The notes: generated by a model not told the origin, from the sequence alone. 32,100 bases of DNA from Nitrospiraceae bacterium (GCA_900299245.1 OMJA01000093.1:1-32100), one strand, 5' to 3'. Positions 1 to 29,613 are shown, counted from the stretch's first letter. Made by a program: numbers and translations.

Positions 1-674
1 AACCCTATATTGGCCATATGGGGCTGGCGGGGGTCGGAAAGTCCCGGCGGCTGATGGAGGATGAGTTTGCCGAACATTCCATCAAGCCGCTCTCGAATAT
101 GTCGATAAAGGAAGTGCAGCCGGGAAAGATGCTGTTGGAGGATGGCCAGGAAGTGCCCTTTCGGTACTCGATGATGATCCCGCCGTTTGCCGGGGTAGAC
201 GCGGTGGCAGGAACAGCGGGCCTGTGCAACCCGAAAGGATTCGTGAACATCGATGCCTATCAGGCGAATCCCAAGTATCGGAACATCTATGCCGTGGGTG
301 TCTGCGTGGCGATTCCTCCGGTTGAACAGACCCCGGTGCCGACCAGCGCGCCGAAGACCGGGTACATGATCGAGTCGATGGTCTCGGCGGCGGTGCATAA
401 CATACACGCCGATATCGAAAACAACGCCAAACGGGACACGGCGACCTGGAATGCGATCTGCCTCGCCGACATGGGCGATACGGGTATGGCGTTCGTCGCG
501 TTGCCGCAGATGGCACCGCGCAATGTCACCTGGGCGAAGAAGGGCAAATGGGTGCATCTGGCCAAGATCGGTCTGGAGAAGTATTTCCTGATGAAGATGA
601 AGCGGGGGGTGAGCGAGCCCTTCTTCGAGAAGGCGATCTTGAAGGCGATGGGAATTACGAAGCTGGAGAAGTAG
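1..674 (+). CDS. Sulfide:quinone oxidoreductase-like FAD-dependent oxidoreductase, C-terminal part (5' truncated by window edge)
   Basis: Frame is open from base 3 (PYIGHMGLAGVGKS...) through the listed ATG at 18, so 18 is internal. SQR-like C-terminal motifs: GVCVAIPPVEQTPVPTSAPKTGYMIESM and CLADMGDTGMAFVALPQ. Confidence 0.85.
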   Translation, partial: PYIGHMGLAGVGKSRRLMEDEFAEHSIKPLSNMSIKEVQPGKMLLEDGQEVPFRYSMMIPPFAGVDAVAGTAGLCNPKGFVNIDAYQANPKYRNIYAVGVCVAIPPVEQTPVPTSAPKTGYMIESMVSAAVHNIHADIENNAKRDTATWNAICLADMGDTGMAFVALPQMAPRNVTWAKKGKWVHLAKIGLEKYFLMKMKRGVSEPFFEKAILKAMGITKLEK

Positions 675-676
675 AG

Positions 677-1228
677 ATGACGCCTGGGGATGACCATCAC
701 GTCGAGGGTGAGTCAGGCCTGCACACGCCGGTCGGCACGCGCCGTTCGTTCTTCAGTCGGATCACCGCCGGCATTGCCGGCCTGATCGGTATGGGGCTGG
801 CGGTTCCCCTGCTCGGCTATGTCATCTCGCCTGCGTTGAAGCGGCGGGAACGGGCGTGGGTCGATGTCGGCGGTGTCGGGGACGTGCCGGTCGGTGAGCC
901 GAAACAGCTCGACCATGTGACGACCATTCAGGACGGCTATTTGCAGACCCGCTCTCAGAAGGCGGTCTGGGCCGTAAAGCAGCAGGATGGACAGGTGACG
1001 GTCTTCGCGCCGAAATGTACCCATCTCGGCTGCGGGTATCGCTGGGCGGACGAGGAGAAGCAGTTCAAGTGCCCGTGTCACGGCAGTGCGTTCGGCATCG
1101 ACGGGCAGGTGCTGGCCGGTCCGGCGCCGCGTCCGTTGGACCGGCTGCCTGCCAGGATCGAGAACGGCCGGCTGATGGTGGTGTTTGAGGAGTTCAAATC
1201 GGGTGTAGCGAATTCCGAGGCATTGTGA
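677..1228 (+). CDS. Rieske [2Fe-2S] protein, N-terminal TM anchor
   Basis: CTHLGC...CPCHGS Rieske cluster motifs; TM anchor near N-terminus. ATG at 677 directly follows the SQR-like stop and is preferred over the ORF-track start at 548, which lies inside the upstream gene. Confidence 0.93.
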   Translation: MTPGDDHHVEGESGLHTPVGTRRSFFSRITAGIAGLIGMGLAVPLLGYVISPALKRRERAWVDVGGVGDVPVGEPKQLDHVTTIQDGYLQTRSQKAVWAVKQQDGQVTVFAPKCTHLGCGYRWADEEKQFKCPCHGSAFGIDGQVLAGPAPRPLDRLPARIENGRLMVVFEEFKSGVANSEAL

Positions 1229-2547
1229 TGCAGCTCTATCGATGGCTGGACAGCCGGCTCAATCTCAAGCCGGTGGAGCGCACGCTGCTCGATGAGCCGA
1301 TCCCGGGCGGCGCCAGCTGGATCTATGTGTTCGGGTCGGTCACGCTGTTCCTCTTTCTGCTGCAAGCCGTCACGGGGATGTTCCTCGCGGTCTATTATGC
1401 GCCGACCCCCGATCATGCCTACGACAGCATCCGGTACATCGAAACGGAGGTCATGTTCGGCGCCTTTGTGCGCGGGTTCCATCACTGGGGCGCGTCGGCG
1501 ATGGTGGTGGCGATCGGGCTGCACATGCTGCAAGCCTTTCTCTATGGTGCCTACAAGCCGCCGCGGGAAGCGATGTGGATGGTCGGGGTACTGCTGTTTC
1601 TCCTCGTCATGACTTTTGCGTTTACCGGGTATCTGCTGCCGTGGGATCAGACTGCCTACTGGGCGACGCAGATCGGGATCAACATGGTAGGGACGGTTCC
1701 GGTAGTTGGCGACTTCATGATGCGGGTGATGCGCGGGGGCGAAACCCTCGGTGCTTTGACTCTGTCCAGGTTTTTTGCGATTCATGTGCTGTTTCTCCCC
1801 GGGGTCATCATTGCGCTGATCGGACTGCATCTCTTTATCCTGCGCCGTGTCGGACCGGCCGGACCCTGGACCGACGAACGAAGCTCCCTGACCAGAGAGA
1901 CCTTCTATCCCCGCCAGGTCTATATGGATGCCGTTGTGATCGGGGGCGTCTTCGCGTTGGTGGCAGTAGCCGCCTGGGTGCTGCCGTTTCCGTTGACGGA
2001 CAAGGCTGATCCGTCGGATACGAGTTTCGTCCCGGTACCGGAATGGTATTTTCTCTTCTACTACGAATTGCTGAAGTACGTGCACGGGCCACTGGAGCCG
2101 TTGGCCACCTGGATTCTTCCGATAGGAGTGATTCTGATCATGTTGTTGTGGCCGTTCATCGATCGGAACCCTGCCAGAAATCCGATCCGGCGCCCTGTGG
2201 CGCTCGGCGCAGGGGCGGTATTTCTGGTCGTGGTGCTGTCTCTCTTGGGGCTGTCGGTCAGGAATCTCTATGCCGTCCCGCGCATCGATCCGGCGGTCGC
2301 CCGTGGGAAGGCGTTGTATGCCGGGTTTGGCTGTGCGGGTTGTCACCGGATCCATGGTGCCGGCGGGGCGGTCGCGCCGGACCTGTCGTTTGTCGGCGAT
2401 ACCAGGCCGGAGCGGGAATGGCATTTGAAACATTTCAAGGATCCCCAATCGGTCTCACCCGGTTCGTTCATGCCGAAGTTTCCGCTTACCGACCAACAAC
2501 TGCATGATCTGACGAGCTATATGCTCAGCCTCACACGTACGCCCTGA
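1228..2547 (+). CDS. Cytochrome b (b6/bc1-type) fused to a C-terminal c-type cytochrome domain
   Basis: Cytochrome b features (GGASWIYVFGS, RGFHHWGAS, GYLLPWDQTAYWATQ, PEWYFLFYYELLKY), then GFGCAGCHRIHGAGG with a CXXCH heme c motif and a downstream Met ligand candidate (SFMPKFPL). ATG overlaps the Rieske TGA. Confidence 0.93.
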   Translation: MQLYRWLDSRLNLKPVERTLLDEPIPGGASWIYVFGSVTLFLFLLQAVTGMFLAVYYAPTPDHAYDSIRYIETEVMFGAFVRGFHHWGASAMVVAIGLHMLQAFLYGAYKPPREAMWMVGVLLFLLVMTFAFTGYLLPWDQTAYWATQIGINMVGTVPVVGDFMMRVMRGGETLGALTLSRFFAIHVLFLPGVIIALIGLHLFILRRVGPAGPWTDERSSLTRETFYPRQVYMDAVVIGGVFALVAVAAWVLPFPLTDKADPSDTSFVPVPEWYFLFYYELLKYVHGPLEPLATWILPIGVILIMLLWPFIDRNPARNPIRRPVALGAGAVFLVVVLSLLGLSVRNLYAVPRIDPAVARGKALYAGFGCAGCHRIHGAGGAVAPDLSFVGDTRPEREWHLKHFKDPQSVSPGSFMPKFPLTDQQLHDLTSYMLSLTRTP

Positions 2548-14398: not shown

Positions 14399-14848
14399 AT
14401 GTGGAAACTCCGGGTAATTGGCGTGATGTTCGCGGCGGTGTTGTCGTCCCTGCATGTCCTGCCGGGAGACAGCATCGGTCAGCAACTTCCGTCTGATCCG
14501 CACCATCGTGTCGTGATGCATCTGAACTCCGGCGACGAGAAGGTCCAGCGGGGGGCGTTGAACAATATCCGCCATCTCTATCAGGAAGTGGGCCGCGAGC
14601 ATCTTCAAGTGGAGTTGGTCGTGCACGGAGCGGGGCTGGCCCTGCTCATCAAGGGCACGACCGGGTTCGGTTCCGAGTTGGCGCAATTGAAAAACGAGTA
14701 CGGCGTACAGGTCACGGCTTGTTCCAACACCATGAAAGCCATGAACGTGACACGCGAGCAGCTGCTCGACGAGGTCGGCGATACGGTTCCGGCGATGGTG
14801 CGGTTGATGGAGCGGCAGGAACAGGGGTGGGCCTATATCAAGCCGTGA
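14399..14848 (+). CDS. Exported DsrE-like (DsrE/DsrF superfamily) protein
   Basis: N-terminal signal/TM (MWKLRVIGVMFAAVLSSLHVLPG); DsrE pattern (RVVMHLNSGDEKVQRGALNNIRHLYQEVG, LVVHGAGLALLIKG) and a single Cys at YGVQVTACSNTM. Confidence 0.8.
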   Translation: MWKLRVIGVMFAAVLSSLHVLPGDSIGQQLPSDPHHRVVMHLNSGDEKVQRGALNNIRHLYQEVGREHLQVELVVHGAGLALLIKGTTGFGSELAQLKNEYGVQVTACSNTMKAMNVTREQLLDEVGDTVPAMVRLMERQEQGWAYIKP

Positions 14849-14903
14849 ACCGTGCAGCATAACAGGTGGAATGCAGAGGCTCACATCAGGAGGAGAGACG
14901 ACG

Positions 14904-15338
14904 ATGGAATCGAAACCGAAAGTCTATCTGTACCACACGGCCGTGCGATGGACGGAGGAGCGCAAAGGGGTGATCTCCTGCGCGGGCAAACCCGATGTCG
15001 AGGTGGCGACGCCGCCGGAGTTCAAAGGGCATGACGGGATCTGGTCGCCGGAGGATCTCTTTGTGGCGTCGGCCAATATCTGTTTGATGACGACGTTTCT
15101 CGCCGTCGCCGGGCGGGCCGGCTTGGCGTTTACATCGTACGAAAGTTCGGCCGAGGGACGGCTTGAACTGGTGGAGGGAAAATTTCAATTTACCGAGATC
15201 ACGTTGAAGCCGGTGATTACGCTCCCTGCCGGCGGGGACGCGGCCAAGGCCAAGGAACTGATCGAGAAGGCCGAAGCGAACTGCCTGATTTCCAATTCGA
15301 TGAAGGCACATGTGACGCTAGTTCCAACCATCCGATAG
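14904..15338 (+). CDS. OsmC-family protein
   Basis: PPEFKGHDGIWSPEDLFVASANICLMTTFLAVA and AEANCLISNSMKAHV carry the two characteristic Cys positions. Confidence 0.85.
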   Translation: MESKPKVYLYHTAVRWTEERKGVISCAGKPDVEVATPPEFKGHDGIWSPEDLFVASANICLMTTFLAVAGRAGLAFTSYESSAEGRLELVEGKFQFTEITLKPVITLPAGGDAAKAKELIEKAEANCLISNSMKAHVTLVPTIR

Positions 15339-15349
15339 AAATTCCTGTG

Positions 15350-15380
15350 GGGCATTCTGGGACCATCACTTAGAATGCCC
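15350..15380. repeat. Perfect 9-bp inverted repeat gggcattct-N13-agaatgccc after the OsmC stop
   Basis: Read directly. Lies 11 nt after the stop, with no T-tract, so terminator or operator role is undecided. Confidence 0.6.
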
Positions 15381-15488
15381 TGGGGAGTTCCTCTCCAATC
15401 AACGCCGTACAGCAGAGCCTTGTGTGTCTGTAAACCTCTAAGCCGCTGAAAACAGAGTTGAATGTTGGTTTTGTAATTGGGCCTTGCA

Positions 15489-15504
15489 TGGCACATCGCT
15501 GGCA
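15489..15504 (+). promoter_or_regulatory. Candidate sigma-54 (-24/-12) promoter
   Basis: TGGCACATCGCTGGCA: GG-N10-GC spacing, close to consensus TGGCACG-N4-TTGCA, 30 nt upstream of the ATG at 15535 in a ~200 bp intergenic region. Confidence 0.5.
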
Positions 15505-15534
15505 ATACTGACTTTGCAGAAAGAAGAGGTGTGT

Positions 15535-15903
15535 ATGCGTGTGATCGGAATCGTGGTCAGTATTCTGATCGGACTGATCTCTGTCGGTTTCGGGGGCGGC
15601 GGGCTCAAAGATCTGCCGGCTGCGTCGGGGAAGCAAGCTGATGCGGTGACCGGCCGGGAAATTTATTCCAATACCTGCATTCGCTGCCACGGGATCGACG
15701 GCAAGGGAGCCCTGGGATTGCAACTCGTGCCGAAGCCTGCCGATTTGACGTCGCCTGGGATCCAGGGCCGGTTGGATGCGAGTCTCTTTAAACGGATTCA
15801 CGACGGAAAGCCCAATACTGCGATGGGGGCGTGGAGCGCGGCGTTGTCCGACGACGAAATCTGGGACGTCTTGGCCTATGTCCGGACATTCCGGCAGGAG
15901 TAA
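15535..15903 (+). CDS. Small periplasmic c-type cytochrome (monoheme)
   Basis: Signal peptide; NTCIRCHGIDGKGALG; clearly paralogous to the cytochrome at 12962 (PADLTS...L.K.IHDG..NTAM.AW...LSD..I..VLAY..TF). Confidence 0.9.
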   Translation: MRVIGIVVSILIGLISVGFGGGGLKDLPAASGKQADAVTGREIYSNTCIRCHGIDGKGALGLQLVPKPADLTSPGIQGRLDASLFKRIHDGKPNTAMGAWSAALSDDEIWDVLAYVRTFRQE

Positions 15904-15998
15904 TCGATTTGAAAAACGGACGAATCCCTTTCAGATTCCCTGTCTCTCAATAATTGAGACTGTGAGTCAGCTTACCTCTCAGACAAGGAGGTGCCATT

Positions 15999-16217
15999 GT
16001 GATCTGTAATGTCGGAGGAATAGAGCGGCCTGTTCGTATCGTCGTTGGCATCGGGGCGCTGGGCATCGGGGCTTTTGGCGGATTGCCGCCGGTGGGTACC
16101 GGGATAGCCCTGTTGGTCGGGACAATTGCTCTGGTCACAGGTGCGATCGGATATTGTCCCCTGTGGACAGTGTTCGGGATCAATACCTGTCCGGTCGCTC
16201 CAGGCAAGAAGGGATAG
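15999..16217 (+). CDS. Small membrane protein, DUF2892 / YgaP-like TM domain
   Basis: GTG start behind aaggaggtg RBS; NVGGIERPVRIVVGIGALG...GYCPLWTVFGINTCP is typical DUF2892. Confidence 0.85.
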   Translation: MICNVGGIERPVRIVVGIGALGIGAFGGLPPVGTGIALLVGTIALVTGAIGYCPLWTVFGINTCPVAPGKKG

Positions 16218-16227
16218 GGAGTAATCG

Positions 16228-17082
16228 ATGCGTTCACGTGTGGTGAGTAGCCTGCTTGTGGCGGGTGTCTTGGCTGGATGGGCTGGATGTACTCCGACAC
16301 CGAAAGTCGATCCGCCGCTTCACGCCGGGGAGAGGAAAGCGGGCTTAACCGCTGCCGACGTGTTGTTTGCACCGCCGTATCCGGAGCAAATACCGGGCGA
16401 CCAGCGGGGTGAGCAAATCCGCCTGGGGTACAAGATCGTGGTCGATACGCAGGAGTATGGCAGGCCCTATGCGGGCAACCGGTTGAATTGTACGAACTGT
16501 CACCTTGATGCCGGAATGAATCCGAATACCGCTTCCTTTGTCGGCATCAGCCGGTTGTATCCGGAATATCGGGCGCGGGCTGATCGGAAGATGACGTTGG
16601 CGGATCGCATCAACGAATGTTTCGAACGCAGCATGAACGGCAAGGCGGCTCCACCCGATAGTTCGAAGTTGCAAGCCGTCGTCGCCTACATCGATTGGCT
16701 CTCGGAAAATGTGCCGCCGGGCAGCGCCGTTCCGTGGCGCGGTATTCCGCGGGTCGCTTCCAGCCGCACTCCGGATCCTGTAAACGGAAAAAAGATCTTT
16801 GCCGCGAAATGCGTGTTTTGCCATGGCGCGGACGGGCAGGGGACGATGGCCGCCCCGCCGCTCTGGGGACCGCACTCGTACAACATTGCAGCAGGGATGG
16901 CTCGCGTGAGCGTCGCGGCGTCGTTCATCAAATCCAACATGCCGAGGGGTTGGGGGTGGACCTTGACCGACGATGAGGCCTATGACGTGGCGACCTATAT
17001 GAACAGCCAGCCGCGTCCGGACTTTCCCGGCAAAGAGCAGGATTGGCCGAAGGGCGGCAAACCGGCGGATACACCCTACTAG
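16228..17082 (+). CDS. Diheme c-type cytochrome, thiosulfate dehydrogenase (TsdA)-like
   Basis: Lipobox WAGC; two heme motifs NCTNCHLDAG and CVFCHGADGQG; TsdA-like LGYKIVVDTQEYGRPYAGNRLNCTNCHLDAGMNPN...RINECFERSMNGK. Confidence 0.82.
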   Translation: MRSRVVSSLLVAGVLAGWAGCTPTPKVDPPLHAGERKAGLTAADVLFAPPYPEQIPGDQRGEQIRLGYKIVVDTQEYGRPYAGNRLNCTNCHLDAGMNPNTASFVGISRLYPEYRARADRKMTLADRINECFERSMNGKAAPPDSSKLQAVVAYIDWLSENVPPGSAVPWRGIPRVASSRTPDPVNGKKIFAAKCVFCHGADGQGTMAAPPLWGPHSYNIAAGMARVSVAASFIKSNMPRGWGWTLTDDEAYDVATYMNSQPRPDFPGKEQDWPKGGKPADTPY

Positions 17083-17091
17083 GAGCGCCTG

Positions 17092-17627
17092 ATGGCCTCG
17101 CACTCTCCGGTCGAACCAGTGCTTCCCTGGTGGGCCGGTGGTCTCGGAATCGGTCTGGTGCTGATCGTGGCTGTCGGGTTGGTGCAACCGATCGGAGTAT
17201 CCACCCAATATGTCGCATTAGACGGCGTGCTGCTGTATCGCGTCCTTCCCGAGGTGGCCGCGCAGACACCCTATCTGCAGGAAACAACCGGAGAATGGAC
17301 CCTGGCCACCTACGAAATTTGTTTGTGGCGGGAATCCCGCTCGGGGCCTTTCTCTCAGCCCTGGCGACCGGTCGATTTACGACCAGGCTCGTGCCGGACG
17401 AATGGAATCGCCGTTTCGGATCAGGACCAGGCCTGCGGCTGGTGTGGGCATTCATCGGCGGTTTCCTTCTGCTCTTCGGAGCCCGATTTGGGGGCGGATG
17501 CACATCCGGCCATATGATCAGCGGGGTTTCGCAGTTGGCGGTGAGTTCGATCGTATTTTCCGTGACGCTCTTTGCCAGCGCCATCGTCACGGCGCGGTGG
17601 CTCTACTCGAACGGGAGACGCGGATGA
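17092..17627 (+). pseudogene. YeeE/YedE-family transporter half, apparent -1 frameshift near 17315-17320
   Basis: N-terminal part (WWAGGLGIGLVLIVAVGLVQP...WTLATYE) is in frame 17092; C-terminal part (NLFVAGIPLGAFLSALATGRF...FIGGFLLLFGARFGGGCTSGHMISG) continues one frame back to stop 17627. Confidence 0.8.
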
Positions 17628-18154
17628 AGCTGTTGTTGGGATTAGTGTTGGGTGCGGCGTTCGGCGCCATGCTTCAGCTGTCCGGCGCATCCAGCCACAC
17701 GAAGATCACCAATACGCTCCGGTTGAAAGATCTGACGGTCATGAAGGTGATTCTGACGGCGATCGGCGTCGGATTGATCGGCGTGCATATGTTGGATGCG
17801 GCCGGCTGGGCTCATATGAAAGTCAAAGACCTCTATCTGCCCGGCATGGCGTTGGCCGGAGGAATCTTCGGAGTAGGCTTTGCGGTGACCGGCTATTGTC
17901 CCGGCACGGCCCTGGCTGCCGCAGCCGAAGGGAAACCGGATGCGTGGGCCACGGTCCTCGGCGGGCTCGTCGGTGCGCTCGTCTTTGCATTCATGTTTCC
18001 CGAGCTCGAGGGATATTTGCTTTCGATGGGTCAGTTCGGTCCGGTCACGGTACAGGGCTTTCTGGGCATGCAAGGAATCTGGCTCGCCGCGCCGCTGGCT
18101 GCGGGCTGTCTGTATCTTGCATGGCGGTTGCCCGGAGCGGGAGGGACACGATGA
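17624..18154 (+). CDS. YeeE/YedE-family transporter, second half-size subunit
   Basis: ATGA overlap with upstream stop; multiple TM; GGIFGVGFAVTGYCPGTALAAAAEGK YeeE motif with Cys. Confidence 0.85.
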   Translation: MKLLLGLVLGAAFGAMLQLSGASSHTKITNTLRLKDLTVMKVILTAIGVGLIGVHMLDAAGWAHMKVKDLYLPGMALAGGIFGVGFAVTGYCPGTALAAAAEGKPDAWATVLGGLVGALVFAFMFPELEGYLLSMGQFGPVTVQGFLGMQGIWLAAPLAAGCLYLAWRLPGAGGTR

Positions 18155-18564
18155 CACTGACGGTCTCCTACCATGGCGGCATGCGGCACGATATCGTGAG
18201 TGGGAAGCATCGCATTATTACAGACCAGCCGGCCGAAGACGGCGGGCAGGATGCGGGGATGAGTCCGGTTGAATTGTTCGTCGGCTCGGTCGCCAGTTGC
18301 GTCGGATACTTTGTCGGGCAGTTCTGCGCCCGGCATCATATTTCACGCGAAGGCCTTGCGGTCGATGCCGAATGGGAAATGGCCGAAGGCCCTCATCGCG
18401 TGGGGAAGATTGCTCTGGCAATCAGGCTGCCGCACCGGCTCACGCCGGAGATGAAGGAGCGGTTGTTGAAAGTTGCGCACGGGTGCACGGTGCACCAGTC
18501 TCTCTCGGGCTCGCCGGCGGTCAGTATCCAGCTCAATCCTCATACCACGGGAGCGCACCCATGA
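18151..18564 (+). CDS. OsmC-family protein
   Basis: MSPVELFVGSVASCVGYFVGQF and LLKVAHGCTVHQSL carry the two conserved Cys; ATG 18151 overlaps yeeE stop (ATGA). Track start 17572 is an artefact. Confidence 0.87.
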   Translation: MTLTVSYHGGMRHDIVSGKHRIITDQPAEDGGQDAGMSPVELFVGSVASCVGYFVGQFCARHHISREGLAVDAEWEMAEGPHRVGKIALAIRLPHRLTPEMKERLLKVAHGCTVHQSLSGSPAVSIQLNPHTTGAHP

Positions 18565-19745
18565 GTGACTCCGGCGCATTGTCCCGCCGCACGTGCTTCC
18601 AGCGGATCGCGTTTCTGCTCGGCGGTCTTGCCCTATGGCGACGGGTACAACCGGCGCAGGCTGAACCGGCTGGCGTGGTCGAGACCGGCCCCCAGACCGT
18701 GCGGGTCATGCGACCCTACGATGCAGAAACCCCGGTGCGAGAATTTGCCTCGTACCTGACTCCCAATCATCGATTTTTTGTAAGAAGTCATTTCGGCCCG
18801 CCTGAAGCGGCGCTGATTGCCGAGGCCGACTGGCGGCTCCGTGTGGGGGGACTGATCGAGCATCCGCTGGAGTTGACGCTCAAGGACCTCAAACAGTTTG
18901 AACGGATCACGATCACGGCGGTGGTGCAATGCAGTGGCAATGGCCGCGCGTTTCATCGTCCGAAAGTGCCGGGCGTGCAGTGGGAGCGGGGCGCGGTCGG
19001 GAACGCCCAATGGACGGGGGTGCGGTTGCGGGACCTGTTGGCGAAAGCCGGTGTGCGTCCTGCTGCGAAGCACGTGCAACTCCAGGGCGCCGATCGCCCG
19101 GTGGTCACGTCCGTGCCATTGTTCACCCGCAGCATTCCATTAGAGAAAGCGGTTCATCCGGACACGATCCTCGCGTACGAAATGAACGGGCGGCCCCTGC
19201 CGCTGTTGCACGGCGCACCGTTGCGGGTGATTACGCCAGGCTGGATGGCTGATTCCTGTATCAAGTGGCTGACCGACATCACTGTGCAGGCGGACGAGGC
19301 CAAGGGCTATTACATGCAGACGGCCTATCGCGTGCCGGTCACGGCCATTCAGCCGAATTCCGGTCTGCCGGGGACCTCGATGGTTCCGGTGGAAGCGATG
19401 GTCCTGAAATCGCTGATCGCCTCGCCCGGCAACGGTGATGAGGTCGGGCGCGGGCCGGTGACCGTGCAGGGCGTAGCCTGGAGCGGGGAATCGGCGATTA
19501 CGACGGTGGAATTGTCCTTTGACGAAGGCAGGACCTGGGAGCAGGCGAGGCTGGTCGGAGAGGATGAGCCCTACGCCTGGCGGCAATGGCAGTTTCTCTG
19601 GAAACCGAAGGCGGCCGGCTCCGCCAGCATACTGTGTCGTGCAACGGATTCGGCGGGCCAGGTTCAGCCGCAGACGACGGCCTGGAACCCAAGCGGGTTT
19701 TTATGGAACGGGTGGGACCGCGTGACTGTGACGGTGCAGGCCTGA
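18561..19745 (+). CDS. Sulfite oxidase-family molybdenum oxidoreductase (SorA-like), putative Tat substrate
   Basis: N-terminal SRRTCFQRIAFLLGG; Mo-cofactor Cys in VVQCSGNGRAFHRP; GPLRVITPGW-like APLRVITPGWMADSCIKWLTDI; C-terminal dimerisation Ig-like domain (ELSFDEGRTWEQA). Confidence 0.9.
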   Translation: MSDSGALSRRTCFQRIAFLLGGLALWRRVQPAQAEPAGVVETGPQTVRVMRPYDAETPVREFASYLTPNHRFFVRSHFGPPEAALIAEADWRLRVGGLIEHPLELTLKDLKQFERITITAVVQCSGNGRAFHRPKVPGVQWERGAVGNAQWTGVRLRDLLAKAGVRPAAKHVQLQGADRPVVTSVPLFTRSIPLEKAVHPDTILAYEMNGRPLPLLHGAPLRVITPGWMADSCIKWLTDITVQADEAKGYYMQTAYRVPVTAIQPNSGLPGTSMVPVEAMVLKSLIASPGNGDEVGRGPVTVQGVAWSGESAITTVELSFDEGRTWEQARLVGEDEPYAWRQWQFLWKPKAAGSASILCRATDSAGQVQPQTTAWNPSGFLWNGWDRVTVTVQA

Positions 19746-20350
19746 TGATGTTCAGTCGTATGTTGATCAGCGTGATTGTGTTGGGCGTGGCCGGGGGCGC
19801 GGCCATGACCGGAGCGCAGGAGGAGGATGTCGTGGCGGCCCTGGCACCGCGGGCGGAAACATTGATTCTCGCACGCTGTTCCGTCTGTCATACGCCGGAC
19901 CTTGTCGCGCAGCAGCGGCTGCCGAAAGACCGATGGGAGGCGACGGTCCAGAAGATGCGGCATTGGGGCGCCGAGATCACGGAGGAAGAGGCGGGGCTGC
20001 TCGTGCGGTTTCTGTCCGCCCGCTATCACCCAGGCGCGCCGGATCAACTGCCGCCGCTGGACAGCGAGTTGCGGAAGGCAGAGCCGTTGACGCAGGAGCC
20101 GGCAGCCGAGGGGCCGCTCGTCGGCGTGGCCGTGCGGGGAGCGGGTATTTTTGAACACAATTGCCAGGCATGCCACGGAACCGGGGCTACCGGCGGGTTC
20201 GGACCCAAACTCGCAAAGAATCCGATACTGAAACACGAAGACCTGTTCTGGGAAACGGTGCTGCACGGGCGCGGGCCGATGCCGGCCTGGGGTGCCGCGC
20301 TCAGCCATCAGGACATTGCCGACATTCACGCCTGGTTGTTGACGAAATAA
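19745..20350 (+). CDS. Diheme c-type cytochrome: SorB-like N-terminal half plus additional class I cytochrome domain
   Basis: ARCSVCHTPDLVAQQRLPKDRWEATVQKMRHWGAEI (SorB-like) and NCQACHGTGATGGFGPKLAKNP. ATG overlaps SorA TGA. Confidence 0.82.
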   Translation: MMFSRMLISVIVLGVAGGAAMTGAQEEDVVAALAPRAETLILARCSVCHTPDLVAQQRLPKDRWEATVQKMRHWGAEITEEEAGLLVRFLSARYHPGAPDQLPPLDSELRKAEPLTQEPAAEGPLVGVAVRGAGIFEHNCQACHGTGATGGFGPKLAKNPILKHEDLFWETVLHGRGPMPAWGAALSHQDIADIHAWLLTK

Positions 20351-20387
20351 GAAGGTACGCAGTTCAACGCAACGGAAAGGAGCGGTC

Positions 20388-21398
20388 ATGAATGTGAGAA
20401 GGAACGTGATGCTTGGAGGGGCGCTGCTGACGCTAGTGGGATTGATGTCCACTCCGAAGCTGTTGTTCGGAAGCGACCAGCCCCGGGCGAAAGAATTGAT
20501 TCAGCAGGCCTGCGTCCAATGCCATCGGCTGGAAGGGCAAGCCGACTCGCGATTCAACCTGCGCGCCCCGGATCTGATCTGGGCCGGGAGCAAGTACAAC
20601 CGGCCCTGGTTGATCCGCTGGCTGACCGGGAAGGAAGCGCCGCTCTATGTGAAAGGCTATCGCTGGGATCTCAGCGAAGGAGCCGTGAAGCATCCGGTCG
20701 TGACGGAGTCAGAGGCGAATGCCATTGCCGATTACTTTGACAAGCACAACAAGGATCCGCGGGTGACAGTCGGCGCGTATGACGTGACGAAGGTCACCAA
20801 GTTTGAAGCCGCGTTCGGCGGGATGGCCTATAAGGCGCATGCCTGTCTCGGTTGCCACACGGTCGAGGAAAACGGAAAACTCATCGGCGGGCAGCAGAGC
20901 GCGGCGCTGGAAAAATCCGGTCAACGCTATAACATGGACTGGCTGTTCCGGTTCGGATTGAACCCGCAGGATTTCGTGCCGCACAGCGGCGAGTTCCTCG
21001 CCGATGCGACCGAGCCGCAGTTACGTGCCGTGCTCGGATACCTGGCGACGCAGGGCGTGCCGGACTTTAAATATTACGAGCCCTGGACGGCTCCCGAATT
21101 CGGGAAGGCCAGCGTCGGGCGCGGAAAAGTCATCTACAAGGAGTATTGCATGCAGTGCCACGGGGCGACCGGGAAGGGCGATGGGCCGGCCGCGGCGACG
21201 CTGGAGCCGAAACCGGCGATTCATGCCAACATCAATTTCAGCGAGGTGCCGACGGAATATCTCTACAACATGATCAATCACGGGGGGGCGGCGATGGGCA
21301 AGTCTGCCAATATGCCGTACTGGGGATTGACCATCGGGCAGCAGGGCGTCGCGGACGTCATGGTCTATCTGAAGGCCACGTTCAAGGGACCGAAGTAG
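20388..21398 (+). CDS. Triheme c-type cytochrome
   Basis: Three CXXCH motifs: CVQCH, CLGCH, CMQCH in 336 aa with N-terminal signal. Confidence 0.9.
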   Translation: MNVRRNVMLGGALLTLVGLMSTPKLLFGSDQPRAKELIQQACVQCHRLEGQADSRFNLRAPDLIWAGSKYNRPWLIRWLTGKEAPLYVKGYRWDLSEGAVKHPVVTESEANAIADYFDKHNKDPRVTVGAYDVTKVTKFEAAFGGMAYKAHACLGCHTVEENGKLIGGQQSAALEKSGQRYNMDWLFRFGLNPQDFVPHSGEFLADATEPQLRAVLGYLATQGVPDFKYYEPWTAPEFGKASVGRGKVIYKEYCMQCHGATGKGDGPAAATLEPKPAIHANINFSEVPTEYLYNMINHGGAAMGKSANMPYWGLTIGQQGVADVMVYLKATFKGPK

Positions 21399-21416
21399 AC
21401 ATTCACGTATGAGCTG

Positions 21417-21449
21417 CGTTCGTCGCTCGCCACATGCGAGCGACGAACG
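21417..21449. repeat. Perfect 13-bp inverted repeat cgttcgtcgctcg-ccacatg-cgagcgacgaacg
   Basis: Read directly: arms 21417-21429 and 21437-21449, 7-nt loop, between triheme cytochrome stop and dsrE start. Confidence 0.85.
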
Positions 21450-21469
21450 GCGCATAAGAAGAGGTTACG

Positions 21470-21829
21470 GTGGCGACGTTTATTATTTCCGGCAGTCGGG
21501 GCACAGATGATCCCACGATGGCGACACTCCCGTTCGTCGCCGCCAAAGCAGCCAAAGAGCAGGGACACGATGTCGTCCTCTGGCTCTGGAACGAAGCTGT
21601 CACGCTGGGACGGAAGGGCACGGCCGATCATGTCCATGGCGTGAATCTGACTCCGCTAAAAGACTTGCTTGCCGGGGTGCAAGCTGCAAATATTCCTATA
21701 TGGGTCTGCGGCGCCTGCGCGGTGGCCAGGCAGATCGGCGGAGCGGATCTGGTGGCCGGCGCGTCCATTAAAGGCATGCCGGACTATATCAAGGCCGTGG
21801 CCGAACGAGACCGGAACGTGGTGTTTTAG
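21470..21829 (+). CDS. DsrE-family cytoplasmic sulfur-carrier-like protein
   Basis: TFIISGSRGTDDPTMATLPFVAAKAAKEQGHDVVLWLWNEAV...ANIPIWVCGACAVARQI; GTG start behind aagaagagg. Confidence 0.83.
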   Translation: MATFIISGSRGTDDPTMATLPFVAAKAAKEQGHDVVLWLWNEAVTLGRKGTADHVHGVNLTPLKDLLAGVQAANIPIWVCGACAVARQIGGADLVAGASIKGMPDYIKAVAERDRNVVF

Positions 21830-21859
21830 TTCGGGGGATTGTTTCTAACGCGGGGGGGC

Positions 21860-22921
21860 ATGATGGCTGCTGAAGGCGAGTCGACCGGCAAATCGAAGCA
21901 GAAAAAAGAGAATCGAGTCGGGCGCGATGCCGGGGCGGTGGACAACGACGGCGAGTTCTTGGCCGACGACCTGGAGACGATTCCCACCGCCGTTCCGAAA
22001 CTCGGCGACGGCTATCGGCAGCGACAGTCCGGAACCGGTGATCAGCTCGCCTATGCGATCGGGGTCGCTGGGCATACGTTGACGGATGAGGATCTGGGCC
22101 GGATCAACACCAGAAGAGGTCTGCTGACACTGCTCAAGCGGAAAGAAGTGGATGTGGAGGAAGTGCGCAAGACCTTGCTGTACGAGCAGGAGTTGCGGGC
22201 GCTTCAGGTCGAACTCGTCCGGTTGCAGCGGTGGGTCCAGGAGAGCGGGCAGCGGATCGCCATTCTGGTCGAAGGACGTGACGCCGCCGGCAAGGGCGGC
22301 ACGATCCGCCGCTTCACCGAACATCTGAATCCCCGCGCCATGCGGGTCGTCGCGCTGCCCAAGCCCACGGATGAAGAGCGGGGGCAGTGGTATTTTCAGC
22401 GGTACATCCGGCAATTGCCGAACAAGGGCGAAATCGTGTTCTTCGATCGCAGCTGGTACAACCGGGCCGTGGTCGAGCCGGTGATGGGGTTCTGCAGCAA
22501 GAAGGACCACCAGCGCTTCCTCCAGCAGGTGACCGAGTTCGAGCATATGCTCTATGAAGACGGCGTGACGATCATCAAGTTCTGGTTCTCGATTTCCAAG
22601 GAGGAGCAGGCGAAACGGTTTGAGGCACGCCGGCAGAATCCGCTGAAACAGTGGAAGCTGAGTCCGGTCGATGAAAAAGCGCAGGAGCTGTGGGATTCGT
22701 ATACCCGCTACAAAGAGGAAATGTTCAGCAAGACCCATGCGACCTTCAGCCCCTGGATCATCGTGAAAGCCAACGATAAACAGTCGGCGCGATTGGAGAG
22801 CCTGCGCTATGTCCTGAATCTGCTGCCGTACAAGGGCAAGGACCAGGCGCAGATCCGTCTGACGCCGGACCCGAATATCATCACCCGTTTCCATCGCAAG
22901 ATGGTCGAGCTGGATTTCTAG
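21860..22921 (+). CDS. ppk2: Polyphosphate kinase 2 family protein
   Basis: PPK2 Walker A/B motifs: LVEGRDAAGKGGTIRRFTEHLNPR and EIVFFDRSWYNRAVVEPVMGFC. ATG at 21860 preferred over TTG at 21839. Confidence 0.94.
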   Translation: MMAAEGESTGKSKQKKENRVGRDAGAVDNDGEFLADDLETIPTAVPKLGDGYRQRQSGTGDQLAYAIGVAGHTLTDEDLGRINTRRGLLTLLKRKEVDVEEVRKTLLYEQELRALQVELVRLQRWVQESGQRIAILVEGRDAAGKGGTIRRFTEHLNPRAMRVVALPKPTDEERGQWYFQRYIRQLPNKGEIVFFDRSWYNRAVVEPVMGFCSKKDHQRFLQQVTEFEHMLYEDGVTIIKFWFSISKEEQAKRFEARRQNPLKQWKLSPVDEKAQELWDSYTRYKEEMFSKTHATFSPWIIVKANDKQSARLESLRYVLNLLPYKGKDQAQIRLTPDPNIITRFHRKMVELDF

Positions 22922-24130: not shown

Positions 24131-25036
24131 GTGCTGTCGATTCGTTTCCATGGCCGGGGCGGGCAGGGCGCGAAAACCGCGAGCCGTATCGTGGGGACGG
24201 CGGCGTTTCTCGAAGGCTATCACGCGCAGGATTCGCCTGTGTACGGGGCGGAGCGGCGAGGCGCCCCGGTTGCCGCGTTCACGCGCATCGACCACAGTCC
24301 GATCCACGAACGGGGCGTAATCGCCCGACCTGATCTGGTGGTGATTGCGGATGCTTCGCTGATACGCGATCCGGCCGCCCGTGTGGCGGACGGGGTCGAT
24401 GAGCGGACGGTTGTGTTCGTCAATTCCTCCCTGAGTCCCGATCAGGTCAGTGTACAGGCGGCGCTTCCTGGCCGGCTGACGGCGCTGGATCTCACCGGTA
24501 TTGCGCTGCGCGAGTTCGGCAAGCGCGGGGCGATCAGTGCCTTGCTGGGGGCGGTGGCCGGACGGTTGAGCGGATTGCATCGGGACTCGATTAGGGACGC
24601 AGTGGCACGGGAGTTGGCGGATCTCGGGTTGTCTTCTGCGGTTATTGAGCGCAATCAGGCGGTTGCTCTGGATTGTTTTGACCAGGTGCCGGTGGTGTCC
24701 GTCGAACCGGGGGGGCCTCGGCCCGCGCCGCCCGTTCAATTGCACCGCCCGACCTATGATGCGCCCACGAAAGGCACGGCAAGTATCACCGTGGGGCCGA
24801 ATTCCGGCCTGCGATCCATGAGCGGGTGGCGGACGTTCCGCCCGGTGTTGCGTCCCGATCTGTGCAACGGCTGCTGGCTCTGTTTTGCGAATTGTCCGGA
24901 GGGAGCCATCACGATCAAGCCCGACGGGAAGCCGGCGGTGTACTACCCGCATTGCAAAGGGTGTCTGGATTGCGTGGAAGTCTGTCCGACCGACGCGATG
25001 ACCGTTGAGCGGGAGCCGCAGGGAGTGCAGCCATGA
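24131..25036 (+). CDS. 2-oxoacid:ferredoxin oxidoreductase, fused gamma + delta (2x[4Fe-4S]) subunits
   Basis: IRFHGRGGQGAKTASRIVGTAAFLEGYHAQDSPVYGAERRGAPVAAFTRI (gamma); C-terminal LCNGCWLCFANCPEGA...HCKGCLDCVEVCPTDAM (delta). GTG start. Confidence 0.93.
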   Translation: MLSIRFHGRGGQGAKTASRIVGTAAFLEGYHAQDSPVYGAERRGAPVAAFTRIDHSPIHERGVIARPDLVVIADASLIRDPAARVADGVDERTVVFVNSSLSPDQVSVQAALPGRLTALDLTGIALREFGKRGAISALLGAVAGRLSGLHRDSIRDAVARELADLGLSSAVIERNQAVALDCFDQVPVVSVEPGGPRPAPPVQLHRPTYDAPTKGTASITVGPNSGLRSMSGWRTFRPVLRPDLCNGCWLCFANCPEGAITIKPDGKPAVYYPHCKGCLDCVEVCPTDAMTVEREPQGVQP

Positions 25037-26268
25037 CCGCCGAGATGATGACCGGCAATCTGGCGGCGGCCTGGGGGGCGCGACTGGCCGATGTGGATTA
25101 TGTGCCGGCGTTTCCGATCACTCCGCAGACGGAGATCGTCGAGACGCTCGCCAAGTGGTGCGGGAGCGGTTCGCTGAATGCCCGGTTCGTCACGCTCGAT
25201 TCTGAGCATTCGATGATGACCGCGGCAGGCGCGGCGGCCGCGACCGGGGCGCGTGTCTTCACCGCCACGTCGAGCCAGGGGCTGCTGCATGCGTTCGAAG
25301 TGCTGTATACCGTGGCCGGCTGGCGGGTGCCGTTGGTGCTGGTAAATGTCTCGCGCGCCCTTGCGTCGCCGATCACGCTGGAGCCGGACCACAACGATGT
25401 GCTGGCCGCGCGGGATTGCGGGTTTCTTCAGCTGCATGCGGAGACCTGCCAGGAAGTCGTCGACTCGATTCTCCTGGCCTACCGGATTGCTGAAGATGCG
25501 AGGGTCTGCCTGCCGGTGATGGTGAACCTCGACGGATTTGTGCTCTCGTTTACCCGTGAGCCGGTGACGCTTCCCGATCCGGAAGTGGTGAAGCAATTTC
25601 TGCCGCCCTTTCGCCCGGCCCATCTGGGCTTCACGGCCTCGGCGCCGCGGTCGCTCGGCACGGCGGTCTTCGGCGGCGCGACCTACAGCTACTTCCGGCA
25701 CCAGCTCCATCTCGCGTCGCTCAACGGTCTCCGCGTGTACGAAGAAGCGGCGGCCGATTTCGAGCGGCTCTTCGGCCGCCGGTACGATCCGGTCGAACAA
25801 TACCGCATGGACGATGCCGAGGATGTGCTGGTCATGACCAATGCGTTTGCCAGCAAAGGCAAGGCGGCGGTGGATGCGGCGAGAGCGCAGGGGCGGCGGG
25901 TGGGATTGCTGCGTCTGCGCATGATTCGCCCCTGGCCGGCTGAGACAATTCAGCACGCCTTGCAGGGCCGGCGGGCCGTGGCCGTGGTCGATCAGAACCT
26001 CTCGCCGGGCCAGGGCGGTATTCTCTTTCAGGAAATCGCGGCCTGCCTGTATCACGAAGCCTTGCGGCCCCGGGCGCTCTGCTCATTCATCGGCGGGCTG
26101 GGGGGAAAAAATCTGTCGGAGGGGGAGTTTCAGGCGATCTTCGAGCAGACGGCGGACGCGGGAGTCCGGGGCACGGGCATCGGGCCGGTGCTGTTGTTTA
26201 CCGAGTCCGAGCATCGTGAAGTGGAACAGTTGCAATTCCTCGCCCATGAACTCAAAACGGGCCGGTGA
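25033..26268 (+). CDS. 2-oxoacid (pyruvate-type):ferredoxin oxidoreductase alpha subunit
   Basis: GNLAAAWGARLADVDYVPAFPITPQTEIVETLAKW...DSEHSMMTAAGAAAATGARVFTATSSQGLLHAFEVLY; ATGA overlap with upstream gene. Confidence 0.95.
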   Translation: MTAEMMTGNLAAAWGARLADVDYVPAFPITPQTEIVETLAKWCGSGSLNARFVTLDSEHSMMTAAGAAAATGARVFTATSSQGLLHAFEVLYTVAGWRVPLVLVNVSRALASPITLEPDHNDVLAARDCGFLQLHAETCQEVVDSILLAYRIAEDARVCLPVMVNLDGFVLSFTREPVTLPDPEVVKQFLPPFRPAHLGFTASAPRSLGTAVFGGATYSYFRHQLHLASLNGLRVYEEAAADFERLFGRRYDPVEQYRMDDAEDVLVMTNAFASKGKAAVDAARAQGRRVGLLRLRMIRPWPAETIQHALQGRRAVAVVDQNLSPGQGGILFQEIAACLYHEALRPRALCSFIGGLGGKNLSEGEFQAIFEQTADAGVRGTGIGPVLLFTESEHREVEQLQFLAHELKTGR

Positions 26269-26275
26269 TGGACCG

Positions 26276-27223
26276 ATGACCTGGGAACCGCAGATCTTCA
26301 AGACGCTGCATCAGATTCCCCGCGAGGAGCATGTCTTCCCGGGCACGCCGCTCTGTGCCGGGTGCGGGGGGCTGGAGTCGTTGCGGCTGGCTGCAAAAGT
26401 GCTGGGGAGCCGCGTGGTCTATGTCGATGCCGCGGGCTGCATGACCAACCTGGCCGCATTCCCGTTCACGCCGCTCGATGCCTCGTGGCTCTACACCACG
26501 ATGGGGTCGGCGCCGGCCGGTGCCCAGGGAGTGCGCGATGCGCTGGATGTCCTGATTGCCAAAGGACGGGTGCCGAAAGAAGAAGACGTGCAGGTCGTGG
26601 TGCTGGGCGGAGACGGCTCCACCTATGACATGGCCCTCTCCTCGACGTCCGGGGCCATCACCAGACAGCTCGACTTCTATTACTTCTGCTACGACAACGA
26701 AGCCTACGGCAATACCGGTGTCCAGCTCAGTCCCGCGACCCCCTACGGCGCGCGCACGACGACCTCGCCCTGCGCCGTGCAGCATCCGGCCGGCACGACG
26801 CAGGAGAAGAAAGACATCTTCGAAATCTGGCGGGCGCACAGGCCTCCGTACATGGCGACGGTATCGCCGCGCTTTCCGCTCGATCTGGAGGAAAAGTTTG
26901 CGCGCGCGGCGGCCTATAAAGGACCGAAACTCTTCCTGGCCTTCGCCGCCTGTCCGACCGGCTGGCTCTTCGATCCGGCCCAGACGCCGGACGTGGCGCG
27001 GCTGGCGGTGGAGTGCGGCCTCTGGCCGCTCAAGGAGGCGGTCAACGGCGTGGTCGTGCATACCTACTGGCCGAAGCTGACGCCGGTCGAAGAGTACCTC
27101 AAGCTCCAGGGCCGGTTCCGCCATCTGTTTGAACCGGTGGTGCAGACTGAGGCCATCGCCCATATTCAGGAGCGGGTGCATGGCTATTGGGCCAGGGTGA
27201 AACGGGAAGAAGGGAATTCCTGA
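26276..27223 (+). CDS. 2-oxoacid (pyruvate-type):ferredoxin oxidoreductase beta subunit
   Basis: PGTPLCAGCGGLESLRL, TPP-binding GGDGSTYDMALSSTSGAI and YDNEAYGNTGVQLS. Confidence 0.95.
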   Translation: MTWEPQIFKTLHQIPREEHVFPGTPLCAGCGGLESLRLAAKVLGSRVVYVDAAGCMTNLAAFPFTPLDASWLYTTMGSAPAGAQGVRDALDVLIAKGRVPKEEDVQVVVLGGDGSTYDMALSSTSGAITRQLDFYYFCYDNEAYGNTGVQLSPATPYGARTTTSPCAVQHPAGTTQEKKDIFEIWRAHRPPYMATVSPRFPLDLEEKFARAAAYKGPKLFLAFAACPTGWLFDPAQTPDVARLAVECGLWPLKEAVNGVVVHTYWPKLTPVEEYLKLQGRFRHLFEPVVQTEAIAHIQERVHGYWARVKREEGNS

Positions 27224-27259
27224 TGCGTCCGGCAGGCTCGTCTGAAGAAAGGGTACGGA

Positions 27260-27775
27260 ATGTCTGAGAAGGGAGTGTCGCCAGTCAAGAAAGAGAGCCG
27301 GATTGTTTTGAACGGCGCGATGCTGGGCGGGCTCTGCATCCTCCTGTTTGCCGGATGCGCCGTCGGCGAATCGCGCCAGGGCGAGCCACGGTCGAATCCG
27401 ATTCTGACCTCCGATATCCGGCAGCCCATTCCGCTGCCGGCGGCAGCAGGGAGAGAGCATCGCGCGGTGATGCTGCAACATTTGGAAACGCTGCAAGTCA
27501 TTATGAACGCGCTGGTCGAGGAGGATTATGAGCTGGCCAGGGGATTAACCGAAACGCATCTGGGGTTCTTTATGCACCGGCAGGCGATGGCGAGTCAGCA
27601 GCCGGAGCATTTTCCCCCGGCCTATCATGATCTGGCCATGGCGCATCACGCCGCCGCTGAGGAATTGGCCCGCATCATCCCGACGAAGGATCTCAAGCAG
27701 ATCCTGCCGCAATTCAATAACGTTCTGAAGGCCTGCGTGGCCTGCCATCTGGAATACAAACTGCGAAGCTCATAA
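27260..27775 (+). CDS. Cytochrome c'-like lipoprotein (C-terminal heme)
   Basis: Lipobox LFAGC; helical body; single CVACHLEYKL motif at extreme C-terminus, as in four-helix cytochrome c'/c556. Confidence 0.75.
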   Translation: MSEKGVSPVKKESRIVLNGAMLGGLCILLFAGCAVGESRQGEPRSNPILTSDIRQPIPLPAAAGREHRAVMLQHLETLQVIMNALVEEDYELARGLTETHLGFFMHRQAMASQQPEHFPPAYHDLAMAHHAAAEELARIIPTKDLKQILPQFNNVLKACVACHLEYKLRSS

Positions 27776-27786
27776 GGAAGGAGCGC

Positions 27787-28233
27787 ATGATGTCCGAACG
27801 CACGATCAGCAGCATGTTTGACGAAGACCATGACCGCCTTGACGCGCTCTTCAAATCCTTCCAGACGTTGAAGCGGAAGGATTTCCCCAGGGCCAAGCGC
27901 GCGTTCCTCGAGTTCAAGACGGGGATGCGGCGGCATGTGGCGTGGGAGGAGGACGTGATGTTTCCGCTGTGGGAGAAAAAGTCTGGCCAGACCGGCGGCG
28001 GGCCGACGATCGTCATGCGGCGCGAACATCAGGAAATCCAGGACTGCCTGGAATCCATCGATCGCAAACTGCAGGCGCAAAATCCGGAGACTGACCATGA
28101 GGAGGAGATTCTGCTGGATCTCGTGGATCGGCACTATATGTCGGAGGAAGAGGTCCTCTATCCTGAAATGGATCACCTGATGACTCCGGAAGAGCGCGAG
28201 GCCGCAGTGCGCGCCATAGAGAAGATTGCCTGA
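27787..28233 (+). CDS. Hemerythrin HHE-domain protein
   Basis: DEDHDRLDALF, RRHVAWEEDVMFPLWE, REHQEIQDCLESI, DRHYMSEEEVLYPEMD metal-ligand spacing. Confidence 0.9.
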   Translation: MMSERTISSMFDEDHDRLDALFKSFQTLKRKDFPRAKRAFLEFKTGMRRHVAWEEDVMFPLWEKKSGQTGGGPTIVMRREHQEIQDCLESIDRKLQAQNPETDHEEEILLDLVDRHYMSEEEVLYPEMDHLMTPEEREAAVRAIEKIA

Positions 28234-28243
28234 GGTGCACACA

Positions 28244-28708
28244 GTGGACAAAGACAGTCTCAAGCACAGCCGGATGGCGATACGAGCGGGGATGGTGGTC
28301 GTTCTGCTGGCATTAGGAGGCGGGGGTATTTCGGCGCCTGGCTTGTGGGCGGCTCCCTCATCGTCCGGAAAGCCGGCCGCGCCGGGCAATGCCCTGGCAG
28401 GCAGGAGCATCTTTAACGGCAAAGGTGTCTGTTACTACTGTCATGGTGTCGACGGGTATATGGCGAAGCGGCCCGAACTTGCCGCTGATACGGCTGCGTT
28501 GATCGCCCGCCTGAATCCGCCGCCGGCTGATCTGCGGAATCCCAACGTGCTCCATTTGAAAAACGACAAGCAGCGCGCGCAAGCCGTTCGCGAAGGTCAT
28601 CCCGGCACGGGGATGTTTCCCGACACGACCATCACGGATCAGGAACTGGCGGATACACTGGCCTATCTGGCGTTCCTTCGGAAGGAAGGCTCCACGGGGC
28701 AGCAATGA
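28244..28708 (+). CDS. Monoheme c-type cytochrome
   Basis: N-terminal signal; GVCYYCHGVDGYM; GMFPDTTITDQELADTLAYLAFLRK. GTG 28244 with AGGTG RBS preferred; TTG 28226 is the track start. Confidence 0.85.
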   Translation: MDKDSLKHSRMAIRAGMVVVLLALGGGGISAPGLWAAPSSSGKPAAPGNALAGRSIFNGKGVCYYCHGVDGYMAKRPELAADTAALIARLNPPPADLRNPNVLHLKNDKQRAQAVREGHPGTGMFPDTTITDQELADTLAYLAFLRKEGSTGQQ

Positions 28709-28730
28709 AGGTGAAAAGCAAAAGGGAGTC

Positions 28731-29111
28731 ATGCCGATGAACAGATGGTTGATTGGCGCCGTCCTCTCTCTGGTGGTTGTTGAAGCTGCGGGCAACGGGA
28801 TTGTGAACGGGGCGAACAGCGATGGACGGCAACATGCGGGCATGAATGAATCGAGCGGGAATGTGCCGGTGCGTCCTGCGGGGGACAGTAGCAGAGGCCA
28901 GGGACTCTATGATTCCAGCTGTATCGTGTGTCATGGGCCGCAGGCCGCCGGCGGCATAGGTCCCCGGTTGGCAGGCAACCCCGTGCTGTCGAATGAACAG
29001 GCGTTCTGGAAGGTCGTGTATGAAGGGCGGCACGTGATGCCGCCGCTGAAAGGCTCGATCACCGAGCAGCAGATGGCCGACATCCAGGCCTGGCTGAAGA
29101 CGTTGCGGTAA
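28731..29111 (+). CDS. Monoheme c-type cytochrome
   Basis: DSSCIVCHGPQAAGGIGPRLAGNP...VMPPLKGSITEQQMADIQAWLKTL; paralogous to the second domain of the 19745 protein. Confidence 0.9.
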   Translation: MPMNRWLIGAVLSLVVVEAAGNGIVNGANSDGRQHAGMNESSGNVPVRPAGDSSRGQGLYDSSCIVCHGPQAAGGIGPRLAGNPVLSNEQAFWKVVYEGRHVMPPLKGSITEQQMADIQAWLKTLR

Positions 29112-29166
29112 GGACGGTCGAAAAGAAACGGATGTCCGAGTTGCTGTATCGTGTATCGATTCACGT

Positions 29167-29613
29167 ATGAGTGAAAACGTTCAAGTCGTCTGTCCTCATT
29201 GCCGGAGCATTAACCGTGTTCCGGAAAGGCGGTTGACCGATCAACCCAATTGCGGCCAGTGTCATGCGCCGCTGTTTACTGGACACCCCATCGCGTTGAC
29301 GGAGGCAGACTTCAATCTGCATGTGCTGCGCACGGGGATTCCGCTTGTGGTGGATTTCTGGGCATCCTGGTGCGGGCCTTGTATGGCAATGGCCCCCGCC
29401 TATGAGAGAGCTGCGACGGTGTTGGAGCCGCACGTACGCCTGGCCAAGGTGAACACGGAAGAGCAGCAGGCGCTGGCGGCAAAATTCGGGATTGCCAGCA
29501 TTCCCACTCTGGTGATCTTCCGCGGGGGGCGCGAGGTGGCGCGGCAGCCCGGTGCCATGGGGACACAGGATATCGAACGCTGGGTCCGCGGGCATTTATC
29601 GAACACTCGATAA
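29167..29613 (+). CDS. trxC: Thioredoxin 2 (TrxC-type, N-terminal zinc ribbon)
   Basis: CPHCRSINRVPERRLTDQPNCGQCHAPLF zinc ribbon; WASWCGPCMAMAP active site. Confidence 0.93.
   Translation: MSENVQVVCPHCRSINRVPERRLTDQPNCGQCHAPLFTGHPIALTEADFNLHVLRTGIPLVVDFWASWCGPCMAMAPAYERAATVLEPHVRLAKVNTEEQQALAAKFGIASIPTLVIFRGGREVARQPGAMGTQDIERWVRGHLSNTR

Follow-up and report, generated by a model that had tools for sequence, protein, structure and literature searches.

The question raised by this locus is whether a contiguous run of genes for sulfur-handling proteins and c-type cytochromes, at 14399-21829 on the plus strand of the window, encodes a single, uncharacterised system for the oxidation of sulfane sulfur and sulfite, as an earlier note on this DNA had proposed. 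The window is the whole stretch analysed, a contig of 32,100 bases (C93) from a Nitrospira metagenome-assembled genome (MAG; G000, 3.0 Mb in 351 contigs, 87.6% complete). Comparison was made with 78 other genomes of its genus, in which the named relatives are Nitrospira, and with 175 genomes of the family Nitrospiraceae. Gene calls and Pfam searches found each of the sulfur families and cytochromes named in the note in its place. The locus consists of a scaffold present across the Nitrospiraceae and of two optional cassettes, namely a YeeE/YedE pair and the sulfite dehydrogenase genes sorAB, and given that both cassettes are removable, the proposal of one single system is not upheld. Judged from sequence, there is about an even chance that the locus is an auxiliary sulfur-redox module specific to the Nitrospiraceae. 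The genes concerned are as follows.

14399-14848, plus strand: exported DsrE-family protein with an ACSNT cysteine, signal peptide judged by eye (Pfam DsrE 1.4e-8; MTH1491 1l1s, E 9.5e-13)
14904-15338, plus strand: OsmC/Ohr-family protein 1 (Pfam OsmC 2.6e-18)
15535-15903, plus strand: monohaem c-type cytochrome with one CxxCH (Pfam Cytochrome_CBB3 1.8e-13)
15999-16217, plus strand: YgaP-like membrane protein, DUF2892 (Pfam PF11127 2.7e-17)
16228-17082, plus strand: TsdA-type dihaem thiosulfate dehydrogenase (PDB 4wqc, A. vinosum TsdA, E 1e-54)
17092-17627, plus strand: YeeE/YedE C-terminal-half protein, PmpA-like, frameshifted (Pfam Sulf_transp, profile 220-309)
17625-18154, plus strand: YeeE/YedE N-terminal-half protein, PmpB-like (Pfam Sulf_transp, profile 10-150; DUF6691)
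18151-18564, plus strand: OsmC-family protein 2 (OsmC2), scaffold gene, overlapping sorA by 4 nt (Pfam OsmC 2.9e-13)
18561-19745, plus strand: SorA-like molybdenum sulfite dehydrogenase subunit (PDB 2blf, Starkeya SorA, E 5e-71)
19745-20350, plus strand: SorB-like dihaem cytochrome, a SorB domain and a second cytochrome c domain (NCBIfam)
20388-21398, plus strand: trihaem cytochrome c, scaffold gene (Pfam)
21470-21829, plus strand: DsrE-family protein with CxxC and no evident signal peptide, scaffold gene (Pfam DsrE 8.4e-19)
21839-22921, plus strand: PPK2-family polyphosphate kinase (Pfam PPK2 8.3e-96)
548-2547, plus strand: Rieske protein (548-1228), then cytochrome b fused to cytochrome c (1225-2547) (Pfam)
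about 18-674, plus strand: sulfide:quinone oxidoreductase (SQR), C-terminal half, the gene cut by the contig end (PDB 3t2y, E 1e-75)

In the loci of relatives the recurrent order is TsdA-OsmC2-multihaem cytochrome-DsrE-PPK2. The YeeE1-YeeE2 cassette sits between TsdA and OsmC2, at times with an exported DsrE ahead of it, and the slot of the SorAB cassette lies between OsmC2 and the multihaem cytochrome. TsdA-OsmC-cytochrome-DsrE is the most constant core and is kept in both comammox (complete ammonia oxidiser) and non-comammox genomes: TsdA orthologues occur in 122 of the 175 family genomes, comammox among them, the multihaem cytochrome in 131/175 and SorA in 77/175, while OsmC2, counted over the order, occurs in 137 of 236 genomes. 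That the cluster is more than chance is borne out by this recurring order and by tight spacings, which stay between -4 and +10 nt all the way from the gene preceding TsdA through SorB; given distances of 9, -3, -4, -4 and -1 nt, the stretch from TsdA to SorB is very likely transcribed as one unit. A chimeric contig was ruled out because many independent genomes share the identical order. Compared across genomes, as the earlier note had suggested, the neighbourhood is kept well beyond one species, and no synteny was seen outside Nitrospira and close relatives apart from one 5.3-kb contig (L057). This contig, binned in a Pyrinomonadaceae MAG, carries TsdA-OsmC-SorA-SorB-cytochrome at ~70% identity and is probably binning contamination from Nitrospira. 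The note had ended the cluster at DsrE; the locus goes on into PPK2, which begins 9 nt past DsrE and keeps this position in most relatives.

In comammox genomes the scaffold is kept, and it is SorAB that is usually missing. Genomes were taken as amo-positive from combined AmoA and AmoB searches (69 genomes, the other 106 being amo-negative), and SorA is present in 5/69 of the former against 72/106 of the latter (Fisher p 1e-16), in the window's genus in 4/55 against 15/24 and in g17 in 1/14 against 12/18; such p-values ignore shared ancestry, and the tree contains essentially two comammox clades, hence few independent events. The absence of SorAB in comammox is not an assembly gap, because OsmC2 and the cytochrome lie only 20-277 nt apart in 40 of the 42 comammox contigs holding both without SorA; in amo-negative loci with SorAB this gap is ~1.8-2.0 kb. 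The exceptions are G029, in which two other small genes fill the slot (L105 5177-6180), and G150, in which 8.7 kb separates OsmC2 from the cytochrome. The slot genes of G029 encode small exported proteins that look like cupredoxins by eye. From AmoA alone, SorA had seemed exclusive to amo-negative genomes (1 overlap in 61). The AmoB search added 8 comammox genomes missed by AmoA, including the SorA-positive G033, G052, G066 and G144, and exclusivity was therefore replaced by strong depletion; the idea that regain of SorA tracks loss of amo within clade A was dropped on the same evidence.

The history of the SorAB cassette was followed on a scaffold tree of TsdA, OsmC2, cytochrome and DsrE, midpoint rooted and with a provisional root. 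On this tree SorAB-bearing lineages surround both comammox clades, L048 being the sister of clade A and L057/L059 lying beside clade B, and the insertion site of SorAB is identical throughout. This shared site favours a single ancestral insertion, and together these features suggest that SorAB was ancestral and was lost in both comammox clades, with some later re-entry. The SorA proteins of comammox G052, G033 and G066, together with that of G054, form their own group near other genera, and in G066 (Nitrospira sp. BO4; L035/L055, L144) SorAB occupies a separate place and is missing from the main scaffold locus, pointing to re-entry by transfer. At this second place OsmC-like genes accompany SorAB, and RND, HlyD, Rieske and SQR genes are nearby. 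In G054, amo-negative by both markers in a genome only 83% complete, an N-terminal SorA fragment directly abuts the multihaem cytochrome gene at its end (L140 5338-5873); it is a deletion scar, the other part of sorA having been lost together with sorB and the bulk of the cytochrome gene. The SorA tree does not agree in full with that of the scaffold and, given that lineage I SorA clusters with the window's clade, nitrite oxidisers may also have exchanged the gene by transfer. It is unlikely that the loss in the two comammox clades was adaptive. On that reading gain of amo drove removal of SorAB with the thiosulfate core retained, because sulfite oxidation via this cytochrome branch would be a disadvantage, or superfluous, in cells whose oxidation of ammonia, hydroxylamine and NO feeds the same pool.

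Loss of active-site residues from SorA or TsdA was looked for as grounds for rejecting a sulfur role, and the residues are intact; counts were taken from alignment columns, rigid motif patterns having undercounted. SorA comprises the Oxidored_molyb (7.4e-59) and Mo-co dimerisation (1.2e-18) domains of Pfam, and the equivalents of R55, H57, C104, R109 and Y236, the molybdenum-ligand cysteine and catalytic Arg/His/Arg/Tyr, are invariant in 50/50 orthologues. It shares with SorAB of Starkeya novella (PDB 2blf) the fold family, the dimerisation domain, each of the five catalytic residues compared and an adjoining cytochrome subunit, and differs in its setting within a TsdA/OsmC/DsrE locus and in a dihaem SorB. 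The latter has two haems in 45/45; with NCBIfam SorB it scores 48 bits, under the cut-off of 93, over residues 36-92, and its second domain matches cytochrome c551 over 128-198, numbered on the scanned stretch 19751-20347. The genome of the window encodes a second sulfite-oxidase-family protein without a haem partner (L041 7084-8115, contig C236), and similar proteins, widespread in the genus, could be confused with SorA. Other sulfite-oxidase-family proteins of comammox, at 33-38% identity, were rejected as SorA orthologues; of two tested, one had SoxC as its top-scoring model and the other gave a weak score with SorA, none of these scores reaching its cut-off, and neither protein has a SorB alongside.

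In TsdA both CxxCH motifs, the haem-1 ligand Cys131 and the haem-2 ligand Met238 are invariant in 95/95 orthologues, the haem-2 methionine being strictly conserved in TsdA generally (PMC5146829). The protein resembles TsdA of Allochromatium vinosum (PDB 4wqc/4v2k) and Campylobacter jejuni in its two haems, their Cys and Met ligands and the arginines near the active site. Haem 2 carries Asn-Met instead of Lys-Met, Asn237 replacing A. vinosum Lys208 in 94/95, as in C. jejuni; unlike these systems, other cytochromes surround the window TsdA and no TsdB partner was identified. Among the remaining proteins, OsmC2 has both cysteines invariant in 100/100, the scaffold DsrE its CxxC in 85/85, and the trihaem cytochrome the three haems of its aligned part in 94/94; the N. 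defluvii counterpart of the last is longer (open reading frame of 490 aa) with a fourth haem site.

The two YeeE/YedE halves described in the note are both present. As in PmpAB, a split YeeE-YedE in which PmpA corresponds to the C-terminal half of YeeE and PmpB to the N-terminal half (PMC11582611), they are two short proteins with a conserved cysteine in each, in a GGGC motif in 29/29 full-length PmpA-like copies and in GYCPG in 31/31 PmpB-like ones; unlike PmpAB, the pair here is tied to TsdA, OsmC and exported DsrE and forms an optional cassette. The order TsdA-DsrEx-YeeE1-YeeE2-OsmC, with the exported DsrE directly 5' of the pair, is found in eight loci (L094, L108, L127, L128, L130, L132, L134 and L146), and this joint travel suggests that the two are a functional unit.

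Given that the scaffold is retained in genomes that lack SorAB, the predicted oxidation of sulfite is an add-on, and the core most likely interconverts thiosulfate and tetrathionate in the periplasm in exchange of electrons with cytochromes, with DsrE and OsmC handling sulfane sulfur. Periplasmic TsdA would join two thiosulfates to tetrathionate and pass the electrons via the neighbouring multihaem and monohaem cytochromes to the cytochrome c pool, which the adjacent Rieske/cytochrome b-c complex, where present, would also use. The optional PmpAB-like pair and exported DsrE would import thiosulfate or sulfane sulfur, persulfide would be carried or reduced by cytoplasmic DsrE and OsmC, and the optional SorAB would convert sulfite from thiosulfate breakdown to sulfate, its dihaem SorB passing electrons to the same cytochromes. 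Coupling of such a module to a sulfite dehydrogenase has a precedent: E. coli TsuB is able to cleave thiosulfate with release of sulfite, and H. denitrificans oxidising thiosulfate excretes toxic sulfite (PMC11582611). The link that the note drew to the Rieske/cytochrome b-c module ~13 kb away is strengthened by relatives, in which these genes lie directly 5' of tsdA in N. defluvii (L068) and L038, and, of the 20 SorA-positive loci holding both genes, 14 have no more than 2.5 kb between cytochrome b and tsdA.

The note had seen no Sox or Dsr(AB) genes in the window, and SoxY and DsrA are indeed essentially absent from the family: SoxY is found in 2/175 genomes and not in that of the window, and no family genome reaches the DsrA cut-off, the best dsrA scoring 47.6 bits against 392.85. 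On gene content, and from a genome-wide search that covered SoxY and DsrA, neither Sox nor Dsr therefore fits, although thiosulfate as presumed substrate and the placing of TsdA within the SoxA cytochrome family are shared with Sox.

Several points weigh against an auxiliary sulfur-redox module. The window SorA scores 326 bits, far under the NCBIfam SorA equivalog cut-off of 600; among the SorA, SorT and SoxC models it is the SorA model that scores best, the N. defluvii orthologue is likewise under the cut-off, and surveys may undercount SorA of this kind for that reason. The putative importer is frameshifted in this MAG, its PmpA-like gene having a one-base deletion at ~17318 relative to 31 relatives and hence no single open frame; either a mistake in the assembly or a true pseudogene could account for this. 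Finally, the direction of TsdA is not readable from sequence, because C. jejuni TsdA with the identical Asn-Met pair acts as a tetrathionate reductase in vivo (PMC5146829).

Three other explanations have to be weighed against the module. It is unlikely that the locus serves detoxification without energy gain, clearing the sulfite, persulfides and thiosulfate that arise in assimilation or when cysteine is degraded: OsmC, DsrE and SQR suit the management of sulfane sulfur and SorAB is dispensable, but the many dedicated cytochromes and the adjacent Rieske/cytochrome b-c complex suggest electron conservation. Given that Nitrospira are mainly aerobic nitrite oxidisers, and that SorAB would feed electrons into the same pool, there is a still smaller chance that the locus is an electron sink, in which TsdA would reduce tetrathionate at low oxygen, drawing on the cytochrome pool, and SorAB would merely clear sulfite. 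The prevalent Asn-Met haem 2 is in keeping with such a sink, since the C. jejuni enzyme supports tetrathionate respiration (PMC5146829), but that enzyme is bifunctional and the residue leaves the direction unfixed. A role outside sulfur metabolism, in which the SorA-like and TsdA-like proteins would have a different small-molecule substrate, perhaps one from the metabolism of nitrogen oxides or peroxide, is very unlikely; it would accord with the restriction of the locus to nitrifiers and relatives, the correlation of SorAB depletion with ammonia oxidation and the frequent peroxidase activity of OsmC proteins, but the proteins keep the catalytic residues known from enzymes of sulfite and thiosulfate, and DsrE and YeeE/YedE are sulfur families.

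A sulfite dehydrogenase of Nitrospira had been published before: PMC7078480 reports one for some comammox genomes and for three closed genomes of nitrite-oxidising Nitrospira, and within the Nitrospirales SorAB has been described as largely restricted to lineage IV (PMC12342949). The passages on it in the two papers share with this analysis the prediction of periplasmic sulfite oxidation and do not include this locus, TsdA or the cassette structure; in contrast to the restriction to lineage IV, SorA is present here in N. defluvii and L038. In openly licensed papers no description was found of TsdA, this locus or the SorAB cassette pattern in Nitrospira. The individual enzymes are of known kinds, and their arrangement and distribution appear undescribed. 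The locus suggests that these nitrifiers may have a sulfur metabolism on the side. In many soils, waters and treatment plants nitrite is oxidised chiefly by Nitrospira, and the places in which these bacteria survive depend in part on alternative electron donors; the wide occurrence of tsdA, with SorAB mostly in non-comammox genomes, offers a concrete link between sulfur and nitrogen cycling that can be tested in culture, and the SorAB distribution is a candidate for a difference in niche that sets nitrite oxidisers apart from complete ammonia oxidisers. Nitrite oxidation is ascribed to the window organism from its relatives, because the NxrB marker TIGR03478 gave no match in its genome; no genome exceeded the cut-off of this marker, partial matches only being seen.

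At the left edge of the window, the SQR that the note had reported is real but truncated, and an SQR homologue is close to the locus in L051, L055 and L060. The region 3' of the locus (24131-29610) encodes three 2-oxoacid:ferredoxin oxidoreductase subunits, a cytochrome c'-like protein, a hemerythrin, two cytochromes c and thioredoxin 2, and 2-oxoacid:ferredoxin oxidoreductase genes come after the locus in N. defluvii as well.

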